Positions 1,367 through 46,773 of a stretch of DNA of 46,773 nucleotides are shown piece after piece; positions within the stretch are counted from its first letter, which is position 1; each line of letters opens with the position of its first letter. The position numbers and the translations under genes were made by a program. Source of the DNA: Parabacteroides sp. (GTDB lineage Bacteria; Bacteroidota; Bacteroidia; Bacteroidales; Tannerellaceae). The notes beneath the pieces were generated by a model. It saw only the letters and a list, made by a program, of their open reading frames with translations. It was not told where the DNA came from and did no database searches. The stretch is from contig JALFJR010000014.1 of assembly GCA_022775005.1 (NCBI GenBank), positions 1 to 46,773 of the forward strand, given 5' to 3'.

Positions 1367-1396
1367 CAAAGATAGATATCTTTTCGAGGGAGACAA
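1367..1396 (-). promoter_or_regulatory. Promoter of tRNA-Lys
   Basis: The minus strand carries TTG (1396-1394), a 19-nt gap, then TATCTTTG (1374-1367), a full Bacteroidetes vegetative promoter. A 6-bp hairpin GCATAG/CTATGC (1344-1361) lies between it and the tRNA. Confidence 0.75.
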
Positions 1397-16073: not shown

Positions 16074-17240
16074 ATGTTGACACAACTTATCAACGGTAAG
16101 ATTCTGACACCTCAGGGTTGGTTGAAAGATGGCTCTGTATTGATCTCAGATGGTAAAATTTTGGAAGTGACCAATTGCGATTTGGCTGTGGTAGGTGCCA
16201 CACTGATTGACGCAAAAGGTATGTATATTGTGCCCGGTGGCGTGGAGATTCATGCGCATGGTGGCGGTGGACGTGATTTTATGGAGGGTACAGAGGATGC
16301 GTTCCGTGCTGCGGTGGCTGCTCATATGAAATATGGTACGACTAGTATTTTCCCCACACTTTCCTCTTCTACTATGCCTATGATCCGTGCAGCGGCTGCT
16401 ACGACAGAGAAACTGATGGCCGAAAAAGACAGCCCTGTTTTGGGCCTGCATTTGGAGGGCCACTATTTCAATATGAAAATGGCTGGTGGCCAAATGCCGG
16501 AGAACATCAAGAATCCGGATCCGGAAGAATATATTCCTCTATTGGAGGAGACGCATTGCATCAAGCGTTGGGATGCGGCTCCTGAGCTACCTGGTGCAAT
16601 GCAGTTTGGAAAGTACATTACATCGAAGGGCGTATTGGCTTCTGTTGGTCATACCCAAGCGGAATATGAGGACATATCTACAGCATTTGAAGCTGGTTAT
16701 AGTCATGCGACTCACTTTTATAACGCAATGCCTGGTTTCCATAAACGTCGCGAATATAAATACGAAGGTACAGTTGAGAGTATCTATTTGATTGATCCGA
16801 TGACTGTGGAAGTCGTGGCTGATGGTATCCATGTGCCACCTACAATTTTGCGTTTAGTCTATAAAATTAAGGGGGTAGAGCGTACCTGTTTGATTACCGA
16901 TGCTTTGGCTTGTGCGGCCAGTGATATTCAGACTGCTTTCGATCCTCGTGTGATCATTGAGGATGGTGTCTGCAAGTTGGCGGATCGGTCAGCATTAGCC
17001 GGGAGTGTCGCAACATGGGATCGACTGATTCGTACGGTCGTTCAGAAGGCAGACATTCCTTTGGAAGATGCTATCCGTATGGGTTCCGAGACACCCGCTC
17101 GCATCATGGGTGTAGCCGATCGGAAAGGCTCTTTGCAGAAGGGTAAGGATGCGGATATTGTCTTGCTGGATAAAGATTTGCAAGTGCGTGCCGTATGGAG
17201 CATGGGTAAACTGGTGGAAGGAACCAATAAATTATTTTGA
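16074..17240 (+). CDS. nagA: N-acetylglucosamine-6-phosphate deacetylase, copy 1
   Basis: A 388-residue amidohydrolase that removes acetate from GlcNAc-6-phosphate in the cytoplasm. The visible metal and catalytic residues are H60 and H62 (EIHAHGGGG), E128 (HLEGHYF), H193 (VGHTQ), H214 (THFYNAM) and D276 (LITDA). The HxH pair is that of two-metal NagA enzymes such as B. subtilis NagA. One oddity is EGHYF where most NagA proteins have EGP. ATG 16074 is preferred because the promoter element lies in the upstream open frame. A paralogue follows after 5 nt and a NagB-like fusion comes next, so this is a hexosamine catabolic operon. Confidence 0.93.
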   Translation: MLTQLINGKILTPQGWLKDGSVLISDGKILEVTNCDLAVVGATLIDAKGMYIVPGGVEIHAHGGGGRDFMEGTEDAFRAAVAAHMKYGTTSIFPTLSSSTMPMIRAAAATTEKLMAEKDSPVLGLHLEGHYFNMKMAGGQMPENIKNPDPEEYIPLLEETHCIKRWDAAPELPGAMQFGKYITSKGVLASVGHTQAEYEDISTAFEAGYSHATHFYNAMPGFHKRREYKYEGTVESIYLIDPMTVEVVADGIHVPPTILRLVYKIKGVERTCLITDALACAASDIQTAFDPRVIIEDGVCKLADRSALAGSVATWDRLIRTVVQKADIPLEDAIRMGSETPARIMGVADRKGSLQKGKDADIVLLDKDLQVRAVWSMGKLVEGTNKLF

Positions 17241-31399: not shown

Positions 31400-31431
31400 T
31401 TTGTTTAAAAAGGAGAAAAAGATTACCTTTG
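31400..31431 (+). promoter_or_regulatory. Promoter of the P-loop ATPase gene
   Basis: TTTG (31400-31403), a 20-nt gap, then TACCTTTG (31424-31431): a full consensus Bacteroidetes promoter. It excludes the upstream start at 31401. Confidence 0.8.
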
Positions 31432-44250: not shown

Positions 44251-45732
44251 ATGGCAAAAGAGTTGAAAGAACTTACCCCCAGAAGTGTGAATTACTCACA
44301 ATGGTATCAAGATTTGGTCATTAAGGCAGACTTAGCAGAGAACTCCGCTGTGCGTGGTTGCATGGTGATCAAGCCTTATGGCTATGCGATTTGGGAAAAG
44401 ATGCAACGCATACTCGATGATAAATTCAAGGAGACAGGCCATGTCAATGCCTACTTCCCCCTGTTGATCCCGAAATCATTCCTCAGCAAAGAGGCGGAGC
44501 ATGTCGAGGGATTCGCCAAGGAGTGTGCTGTGGTGACGCACTATCGCTTGAAAACCAATCAGGATGGCTCGGGTGTCGTGGTTGATCCCGCCGCTAAATT
44601 GGAGGAGGAGTTGATTATCCGACCGACTTCGGAGACCATTATCTGGAATACATACCGCAACTGGATCCAGTCTTATCGCGACCTGCCGATTCTTTGTAAT
44701 CAGTGGGCCAATGTGATGCGTTGGGAGATGCGTACCCGTCTGTTCCTGCGTACGGCTGAGTTCCTTTGGCAAGAGGGCCACACCGCTCACGCCACCCGTG
44801 AGGAGGCCGAGGAGGAGGCAAAGAAAATGCAGAGTGTCTATGCCGACTTCGCCGAGAACTACATGGCAATGCCAGTCATCAAGGGTGTGAAATCAGCCTC
44901 TGAGCGTTTCGCCGGGGCACTGGATACCTATACGATCGAGGCGATGATGCAGGATGGCAAGGCGTTGCAGGCTGGTACCTCTCACTTCTTGGGTCAGAAC
45001 TTCGGCCGGGCGTTCGACGTGACTTTCATTGATAAGGATGGCAAGAGCGATTACGCTTGGGCAACCTCTTGGGGTGTTTCTACCCGTTTGATCGGTGCCT
45101 TGATCATGTCGCACTCCGATGATAACGGTTTGGTGCTTCCGCCTCACTTGGCTCCGATTCAGGTGGTGATCGTTCCTATCTATCGCAACGCCGAGCAGTT
45201 GGCACAGATCAGCGAGAAGGTGGATGGCATCGTGGCTCGCTTGAAGGCGTTGGGCGTTTCCGTGAAATATGACGATGCGGATAACCGTAAGCCGGGCTGG
45301 AAGTTTGCGCAATATGAGTTGAAGGGTGTTCCTGTTCGTTTGGCTATGGGTGGCCGCGACTTGGAGAATGGCACAGTCGAGGTGATGCGTCGTGACACCT
45401 TGGAGAAGGAGACCCGTTCTGTCGAGGGCATCGAGGAGTATGTAAAGAACCTGTTGGAGGAGATTCAGGCGAATATCTTCAAGAAGGCATACGACCATCG
45501 TCAAGCCAACATCGTCAATTTGGATACCTACGAGGAGTTCAAGGAGCAAATTGAGAAGGGCGTATTCATCATGGCGCATTGGGATGGCACGCCTGAGACA
45601 GAGGAGCAGATTAAGAATGAGACGAAGGCAACGATCCGTTGCATCCCGTTCGATGGCGATCCGACACCGGGCAAGTGTATGGTGACAGGCAAGCCCTCTG
45701 CTCGTCGTGTGCTCTTCGCAAGAGCTTACTAA
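44251..45732 (+). CDS. proS: Prolyl-tRNA synthetase, short (archaeal/eukaryote-like) form
   Basis: A 493-residue class II synthetase that lacks the editing insertion of the long bacterial form (about 570 residues), as is usual in Bacteroidetes. Motif 2 is [21 protein letters not shown]; the class II core, the anticodon-binding domain ([18 protein letters not shown] onward) and the C-terminal zinc-binding-like domain end RRVLFARAY are all present. It starts [20 protein letters not shown] strong terminator follows. Confidence 0.97.
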
Positions 45733-45771
45733 GAAGCAATCAGAGCAATATTTTTTAGATGAATAATATGG

Positions 45772-45804
45772 GCCTCCGGGGAAGTGATTCTCCGGGGGCT
45801 TTTT
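45772..45804 (+). terminator. Rho-independent terminator of proS
   Basis: An 11-bp stem GCCTCCGGGGA / TCTCCGGGGGC with two G-T pairs and a 6-nt loop is followed by five T. Confidence 0.92.
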
Positions 45805-45805
45805 G

Positions 45806-46000
45806 TTGCTCTTTACTCTCCTTATCACTTATCCTATCTCTGCTCCCAACCAAACTCACTGAAACACCCTTGTTCCTCTAATCGGCGATTAGAGCTCCAC
45901 CGACTTTGGTTTAGACCTTCACCGAGTTTGGTATAGAGGAAGAGCGGAGGAACGACGGAGTAGCTTCGGAGGAAGAGTAGAGGGAAAGTTAAGTCTATTC
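45806..46000 (+). other. 195-bp non-coding stretch next to the CRISPR array (possible leader)
   Basis: No gene is seen. It holds a perfect 9-bp inverted repeat (45876-45894) and two direct copies, 22 bp apart, of a CACCGAnTTTGGT-type unit (45896-45916 and 45918-45938), with an inverted, partial copy (45850-45863). The last 40 bases before repeat 1 are purine-rich. Whether this is the leader or the far end of the array cannot be decided without the cas genes and the other array end, but repeat 1 is intact, which favours the leader side. Confidence 0.5.
45876..45894. repeat. Perfect 9-bp inverted repeat beside the CRISPR array
   Basis: CTCTAATCG, one G, CGATTAGAG. It could be an operator or a small hairpin. 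It is not followed by a T-run, so it is not a terminator. Confidence 0.6.
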
Positions 46001-46773
46001 GTTGTGATTTGCTTAGAAATTCTTACCTTTGAAAGGTGATTAACAACTTTATGCTTTGTTAAGTCCATGAAGTCGTCGGTTGTGATTTGCTTAGAAATTC
46101 TTACCTTTGAAAGGTGATTAACAACATATTGGTACGTTGGACAAAAAGCCGTTTGTTGTGATTTGCTTAGAAATTCTTACCTTTGAAAGGTGATTAACAA
46201 CCGAATGGCTGTAATACCGAGATCTTTCAGTGTTGTGATTTGCTTAGAAATTCTTACCTTTGAAAGGTGATTAACAACCCGCCGTGGCGAGGGTGTTCCG
46301 CCCGGGGTGGTTGTGATTTGCTTAGAAATTCTTACCTTTGAAAGGTGATTAACAACAATAAGAAGCGACAATACTTATATCATTAGGTTGTGATTTGCTT
46401 AGAAATTCTTACCTTTGAAAGGTGATTAACAACGAGAAAGAGTATTTGCTTCGGTTGAACATGGTTGTGATTTGCTTAGAAATTCTTACCTTTGAAAGGT
46501 GATTAACAACCCGTGACATTCAAGGGCAAGGGTGAGTTCAGTTGTGATTTGCTTAGAAATTCTTACCTTTGAAAGGTGATTAACAACCCACCATACATTA
46601 TAGCACAGTGGGATTTGTTGTGATTTGCTTAGAAATTCTTACCTTTGAAAGGTGATTAACAACACATCTGTTTGGAAATGTCAACAAATGCAGGTTGTGA
46701 TTTGCTTAGAAATTCTTACCTTTGAAAGGTGATTAACAACCCGTTCAGGTGGACATATCTACGCAGACTTGTT
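46001..46773 (+). CRISPR. CRISPR array, 47-bp repeats, type II-C-like, continues past the window
   Basis: Ten complete identical 47-bp repeats start at 46001, 46079, 46155, 46232, 46310, 46387, 46464, 46541, 46617 and 46694; the first three bases of an eleventh are at 46771-46773. Ten spacers are 31, 29, 30, 31, 30, 30, 30, 29, 30 and 30 nt. The repeat starts GTTGTGATTTGC and ends GATTAACAAC, with terminal GTTGT/ACAAC complementarity and an internal ACCTTT-G-AAAGGT palindrome. Its 47-bp length and start resemble Bacteroides type II-C (Cas9) repeats as I remember them. No cas gene or tracrRNA anti-repeat lies in the window, so cas9-cas1-cas2 would lie to the right or elsewhere. All spacers differ. 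Confidence 0.97.
46002..46031 (+). promoter_or_regulatory. Promoter inside each CRISPR repeat (shown for repeat 1)
   Basis: Repeat positions 2-4 are TTG and positions 24-31 are TACCTTTG, with exactly 19 nt between, a full Bacteroidetes promoter. It recurs in all ten repeats. Transcription would start around repeat position 37-40 and run into the next spacer and repeat, the spacer-repeat order of type II crRNAs. This also suggests that the plus strand is the crRNA strand. Confidence 0.65.

Follow-up and report, generated by a model that had tools for sequence, protein, structure and literature searches.

At its end, the 46,773-nt contig of Parabacteroides sp. analysed here over its full length (the window; contig C98 of a 109-contig genome) carries a CRISPR array (46001-46773), and each repeat of this array very probably constitutes a complete promoter for the primary sigma factor of the Bacteroidota, of the sigma-ABfr type, serving the spacer that follows. 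The array comprises 10 full 47-nt repeats, identical without a single mismatch, and spacers of about 30 nt (Table 1). The identical repeat is also present on contig C61, in 12 exact copies and a partial one at the contig end, adjoining cas9, cas1 and cas2; because both contigs end inside an array and the repeats are identical and run in the same direction, we infer that the two pieces belong to one array. The cas9 gene is of the Csn1 family (L009:10270-14856; TIGR01865, 453.1 bits against a cut-off of 100), and next to it lie a type II cas1 (TIGR03639, 311.6 bits) and cas2 (TIGR01573, 67.6 bits). Between cas9 and the array, that strand has no further open reading frame (ORF) of at least 100 aa, and on its gene content the locus is a type II-C CRISPR-Cas system. 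Judged by sequence orientation, the array runs in CRISPR RNA (crRNA) sense from a proline--tRNA ligase gene, a name read off the sequence without a family search, towards cas2. On the opposite strand of L009, upstream of cas9, is the anti-repeat of a predicted trans-activating CRISPR RNA (tracrRNA), which would pair with repeat positions 2-21 (score 33 versus 20 for the next best candidate); TATCTTTG begins 12 nt before it. At the contig end, two neighbouring spacers are identical (L009:17040-17069 and 17117-17146), by duplication or as an assembly effect.

All ten repeats of the window have TTG at repeat positions 2-4 and TACCTTTG at positions 24-31, separated by 19 nt, just as an earlier note on this DNA had claimed. 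The two promoters that it offered for comparison are likewise as described: that of tRNA-Lys (1396-1367, minus strand, gap of 19 nt) and one at 31400-31431, which reads TTTG-N20-TACCTTTG. The repeat has the layout of sigma-ABfr promoters, TAnnTTTG with TTG about 17-21 nt upstream, the spacing being calibrated on tracrRNA promoters. In the non-array sequence (1-46000, both strands) TAnnTTTG occurs 44 times, TTG-N17-21-TAnnTTTG three times and TTG-N19-TAnnTTTG once, the sole instance of the last being the tRNA-Lys promoter. The repeat ends in TTAACAAC, so its final 6 nt are not the TAnnnT of the Neisseria type. A scan of 45700-46773 for sigma70-type promoters gave one match, on the minus strand (46624-46597), with 2.3 expected from shuffles; a sigma70 predictor therefore overlooks the repeat motif. 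Since the repeats are copies, the motif in ten of them counts as one event, and the evidence against chance is the sequence comparison with other species, not the tenfold repetition in the window.

Table 1. Array repeats, their -7 boxes and associated signals in the window.
Feature	Position	Strand	Remarks
Repeat 1, leader-distal, complete	46001..46047	+	TTG 46002-46004; -7 box TACCTTTG 46024-46031
Repeat 2	46079..46125	+	-7 box 46102-46109
Repeat 3	46155..46201	+	-7 box 46178-46185
Repeat 4	46232..46278	+	-7 box 46255-46262
Repeat 5	46310..46356	+	-7 box 46333-46340
Repeat 6	46387..46433	+	-7 box 46410-46417
Repeat 7	46464..46510	+	-7 box 46487-46494
Repeat 8	46541..46587	+	-7 box 46564-46571
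Repeat 9	46617..46663	+	-7 box 46640-46647
Repeat 10	46694..46740	+	-7 box 46717-46724; contig end 33 nt further, within the array
tRNA-Lys comparison promoter, outside the array	1367..1396	-	TTG-N19-TATCTTTG
Intrinsic-terminator-like hairpin with T-run	45770..45801	+	between the proline--tRNA ligase gene and the array

Relatives and controls were both collected via type II cas1, whatever the cas9 or subtype of each locus. The family TIGR03639 was detected in 59 of the 395 phylum genomes searched and in 141 of the 393 from the order. Every one of the 59 further places from the phylum search was taken, together with 100 from the order search, which were picked by contig position (room on the array side being preferred) and not by content, about 43 order places remaining. 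This gave 160 loci including the window's own, 135 with an array and 25 in which none was found, and 127 distinct repeats, of which 94 are long (44-49 nt) and 33 have 36 nt. Repeat orientation was set by the cas1 strand, independently of the motif. An ORF of at least 900 aa on the cas strand is present in 123 of the 135 array loci and in 93 of the 96 long-repeat loci. Controls came from a cas1 alignment headed by a Limnohabitans sequence, as the best 80 of 576 confirmed named loci plus four plasmid loci; 68 of these 84 have an array (16 do not), yielding 67 distinct repeats. None of the 80 carries a Bacteroidota name in its title, the control repeats being mostly from other phyla, and three of the loci (L264, Rhodothermales; L277, Balneolaceae; L285, Gracilimonas) we take to be close kin of the Bacteroidota. 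A further set from the same order consists of 39 loci with a type I-C or I-B cas1, nine of them without an array, and provides 30 distinct type I repeats.

TAnnTTTG is present in crRNA sense in 59 of the 94 long Bacteroidota repeats and in antisense in one, against a mean of 6.5 and a maximum of 17 in 300 rounds of dinucleotide shuffling. When a TTG 17-21 nt upstream is demanded as well, 54 repeats remain in sense and none in antisense. The 59 exact boxes begin at position 23 (24 cases), 24 (20), 25-28 (12) or 31-32 (three), and the gap from the TTG at 2-4 is 18-20 nt in 48 of them, 21-23 in seven and 26-27 in three, a single repeat having no TTG there. A named record, a Phocaeicola massiliensis plasmid (L200), has a 47-nt repeat with TATCTTTG at positions 24-31. 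On either strand, the motif is found in none of the 67 control repeats beside type II cas1 and in none of the 30 type I repeats. Control repeats instead end in TAnnnT (58 of 67, versus three of 94 long and seven of 33 short Bacteroidota repeats), preceded in 24 of the 67 by TGn, as expected of a sigma70 -10 box on sequence grounds. In these samples the motif, as a sequence feature, is specific to long Bacteroidota type II repeats and characterises neither Bacteroidota repeats nor type II repeats as a whole.

Conservation was also measured on a tree of cas1 from the 96 long-repeat loci, on which the changes in each repeat column were mapped. The core positions TA--TTTG changed 6, 5, 2, 2, 15 and 19 times (mean 8.2 per column), the two free nn positions 20 and 19 times, and the 15 other columns of the region 25.4 times on average, so that the fixed positions of the box change a third as often as their neighbours; six randomly chosen columns were equally low in 26 of 100,000 draws. 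Restricted to the order (70 loci), the values are 4.2 for the core, 14 and 11 for nn and 18.6 for the other columns, with 12 of 100,000 draws as low. What emerges is a conserved island with a hole at nn, flanked on both sides by columns with insertions and deletions, much as the earlier note had anticipated in proposing that the promoter is kept while adjacent bases change. Repeat variants inside arrays amount to eight positions in all, too few to use.

The tracrRNA genes provide an internal yardstick. Of the 96 long-repeat loci, 82 have a clear anti-repeat and the other 14 were left out; an exact TAnnTTTG lies at most 30 nt 5' of the anti-repeat in 58 of the 82 (shuffles: mean 3.3, maximum 9). 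Of these 58 boxes, 37 begin 11 or 12 nt before the anti-repeat, and the TTG upstream of the 58 peaks at gaps of 18, 19 and 20 nt (6, 8 and 16 cases). In sequence, then, the tracrRNA genes carry the same box and TTG spacing as the repeats, and from the offset of 11-12 nt transcription in the window is predicted to start at about repeat position 35-36. The anti-repeats also delimit the predicted crRNA:tracrRNA duplex, which stops short of the TTTG of the box in 51 of 55 exact-box loci (the ends were taken from a search uncapped by query length); the 130 nt of tracrRNA that follow, its body, contain a perfect complement of the box in none of the 55. By this prediction RNase III would still have a duplex of about 20-25 nt as substrate.

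Motif, spacing, orientation, phylum-specific conservation and position outside the predicted duplex can all be read from the sequences themselves; we infer from them that the promoter fires, where it starts and which crRNAs result. The -33 element would be the TTG at repeat positions 2-4 and the -7 element the TACCTTTG at 24-31; each repeat would recruit RNA polymerase with the Bacteroidota sigma factor, starting at about position 35-36. The transcript would contain the last 12 or so nucleotides of the repeat, the spacer of about 30 nt and the next repeat, heading towards cas2, and the 5' 20 or so nucleotides of that next repeat would form a duplex with the anti-repeat in the tracrRNA, whose gene lies upstream of cas9. 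Each spacer would thus be served by the promoter in the repeat on its 5' side. RNase III, with which the earlier note suggested that the array could dispense, may remain needed for 3' trimming, and some nuclease for the 5' side. With a promoter of its own for each spacer, the activity of old spacers would not fall below that of new ones. The repeat comparison, the tree and the tracrRNA genes all speak for the earlier note's proposal of a putative Bacteroidota-type promoter in every repeat, in crRNA sense.

Several observations weigh against this reading. The exact box is missing from 35 of the 94 long repeats; 28 of the 35 have a box with one mismatch at starts 20-34, and allowing one mismatch makes the search unspecific (78 of 94 in sense, 32 in antisense, 24.6 in shuffles). 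Among the 36-nt Bacteroidota repeats the exact box occurs in four of 33 in sense and in none in antisense (shuffles 1.0), and with at most one mismatch in 10 of 33 (shuffles 5.5); of the conservation in Bacteroidetes that the earlier note proposed, the part concerning long repeats stands and the part concerning 36-nt repeats does not. The long repeats lie largely within one cas1 clade, so the 59 boxes overstate the number of independent events; the tree test is independent of that count. TTG at 2-4 is also found in 45 of the 67 control repeats, and the GTTGT end of the repeat pairs with the tracrRNA, which constrains the TTG otherwise. Because of this pairing and of its occurrence in the controls, the TTG is no independent evidence of a promoter; of the two elements whose conservation was in question, the core of the box at 24-31 stands out above its neighbours and the TTG is not separable from tracrRNA pairing. 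Predicted pairing extends into the box in four of the 55 loci (L101, L133, L164 and L197). Exact-box arrays have a box upstream of the array in seven of 42 cases, with 3.8 expected, when decayed first repeats are stepped over. Finally, where the first repeat is truncated at its 5' end (25 of 70 arrays), the exact box is kept in 12 of 16 cases versus 9.3 expected for random break points, which is not decisive.

The motif could be kept as a signal in RNA, a nuclease site or a contact of Cas9 or tracrRNA in the pre-crRNA, needed for processing. Such a role would suit its position immediately 3' of the predicted duplex, a site at which an RNase might act. The same box with the same TTG spacing precedes the tracrRNA anti-repeat, however, and so lies upstream of a functional RNA; moreover, the two inner positions of the box are free, and most control repeats bear TAnnnT at the 3' end in its place. 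Selection for processing is accordingly an improbable account of the motif.

Could a single promoter outside the array drive it, the box in the repeat being a relic or a weak side effect? Arrays of 36-nt repeats that point away from cas seem to work in this way: TAnnTTTG lies 92-141 nt upstream of the first repeat in seven of nine (L112, L117, L127, L157, L163, L177 and L189), a count that excludes L068, L083 and L090, whose repeats are misoriented, and that becomes seven of 12 with them (shuffles 1.2 for 12). An anti-repeat check of the nine clearly favours the assumed orientation in five (L127, L131, L157, L163 and L177) and the opposite one in L112. It is as if a leader promoter replaced the repeat promoter in these arrays, and by their sequences arrays seem to have the box in one of two places, the repeat or the leader. 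In 36-nt arrays pointing to cas, an upstream box is present in one of 23 (shuffles 2.5) and the repeats are mostly without one; some of these repeats, such as those of L058, L064 and L096, end in GATATT or TAGATT, with no box in the repeat or upstream. The slight excess of upstream boxes among exact-box arrays would also favour an external promoter. Long-repeat arrays taken together nevertheless have no clear surplus of TAnnTTTG in the 150 nt before the first repeat (nine of 68, 6.2 expected; the other 28 of the 96 have no first repeat with enough upstream sequence), and those without an exact box have it in three of 26 (3.1 expected). In the window, the 600 nt that precede the array (45401-46000) contain the terminator-like hairpin and, on the + strand, no TAnnTTTG. 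A relic, besides, would not remain conserved amid changing neighbours, and we regard control of the long-repeat arrays from outside as unlikely.

Recognition of the motif by Cas1-Cas2 during spacer integration, as the reason for its conservation, is the least probable alternative, to be given very little weight: repeat-internal sequences are understood to matter for integration in some systems, but type II cas1 of the controls stands beside repeats without the motif (none of 67), the start of the box varies (repeat 23-28 or 31-32), and tracrRNA genes have this box too.

The array ends present features of their own. The oldest repeat is in some arrays (for example L140, L143, L152 and L159) short of part of its tracrRNA-pairing 5' half; the first repeat of L152 starts just before the -7 box, and that of the window is complete. 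Such decay of the first repeat fits the suppression of extraneous crRNA described in the available part of one report (PMC12080349). At the leader end, a hairpin with a z-score below -2 is present in 47 of the 96 long-repeat loci versus six of 72 upstream controls, the stretch including 14 nt of repeat. A hairpin after the final repeat was considered as a terminator for the last repeat's promoter and rejected, as hairpins of terminator-like form are seen on either strand (29 and 26 of the 96; shuffles 3.8 on the crRNA strand). In sequence, such two-strand hairpins fit converging transcription of cas genes and array and do not bear specifically on repeat promoters. At L009:16195-16231 (crRNA sense is minus), the last five bases of the leader-side repeat form a perfect 13-bp stem with the leader. 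Many long-repeat leaders have a recurring TTAGGATTAAAA or TTAGAAATAAAA about 45-57 nt past the last repeat (not counted), which may be an element of the leader that serves spacer integration.

If the long repeats do contain promoters, how did these arise? The earlier note had favoured an independent origin. It is plausible that an older repeat promoter was adjusted to the sigma factor of its host, because 58 of the 67 control repeats end in a sigma70-like TAnnnT, and on these sequences this appears at least as likely. A broader proposal, to which we give about even chances, is that the II-C repeat promoter is rewritten to suit the sigma factor of the host phylum: the Bacteroidota box lies about 7 nt further upstream and the repeat is about 10-11 nt longer, which places box and start inside the repeat beyond the duplex, and related 36-nt arrays are reversed, with the box in the leader. 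The long repeats of Bacteroidetes II-C systems have been remarked on in print, in a passage that cites others (PMC5704556); a rewritten promoter needing room for box and start would explain their unusual length, and so offers a testable reason for it. If repeat promoters are real, every spacer would have its own start, whatever its place in the array, and crRNA direction, start site and tracrRNA duplex span could become predictable in many of the Cas9 systems of Bacteroidota. Transferred to a different phylum, such an array would be expected to have no working internal promoters, except where its repeat suits the new sigma factor.

In Neisseria and Campylobacter, a sigma70-type box ends the 36-nt repeat. 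The box of the window starts at position 24 of a 47-nt repeat, 16 nt before the repeat end, and the predicted start consequently falls in the repeat and not, as in those genera, in the spacer. The present array is otherwise like the type II-C arrays of Neisseria meningitidis and Campylobacter jejuni, for which three reports cite a promoter in each repeat (PMC12080349, PMC8092290, PMC5006608), in having a putative crRNA-sense promoter per repeat and in pointing, by its sequence, towards cas2 and the leader end. Closer in phylogeny are the Flavobacterium II-C arrays. In F. columnare, whose repeat has 36 bases, a repeat promoter was inferred from a TTG 33 bp upstream of each spacer, and eight array reads run in the direction of that promoter (PMC8092290). 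In F. psychrophilum it was inferred from a TTG 35 bp upstream of each spacer, and TAnnTTTG is named for the cas9 gene (PMC10309648). For neither species does the available part of the report name a -7 box in the repeat. These arrays share the phylum and the proposed repeat TTG, and to this the window and the other long repeats add the -7 box, its spacing and its conservation. Among the matches listed in open-licence literature, as far as their accessible text goes, there is no report of a conserved TAnnTTTG in II-C repeats. Type II-C repeat promoters as such are thus known, as is the proposal of a TTG in the repeats of Flavobacterium; what appears to be new is the -7 box, together with its conservation and its location beyond the duplex.

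The BDGP predictor was, to our knowledge, not made for the Bacteroidota sigma factor. It was applied to the leaders of Riemerella anatipestifer, whose type II-C CRISPR1 has a 47-nt repeat and in whose repeats the authors, in the available part of the report, found no promoter (PMC5006608). CRISPR1 resembles the present arrays in the length class of its repeat, the anti-repeat upstream of cas9 and the leader palindrome. Unlike that report, the present comparison predicts repeat promoters for the length class, and if true this would contradict the published inference for a Bacteroidota 47-nt array. The sigma-ABfr promoters of Bacteroides have TAnnTTTG at -7 and TTTG at about -33, according to the available part of their description (PMC7366714). 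The putative promoters of the long repeats are like them in having both elements, with a spacer of variable length between, and unlike them in being set inside a repeated non-coding unit.
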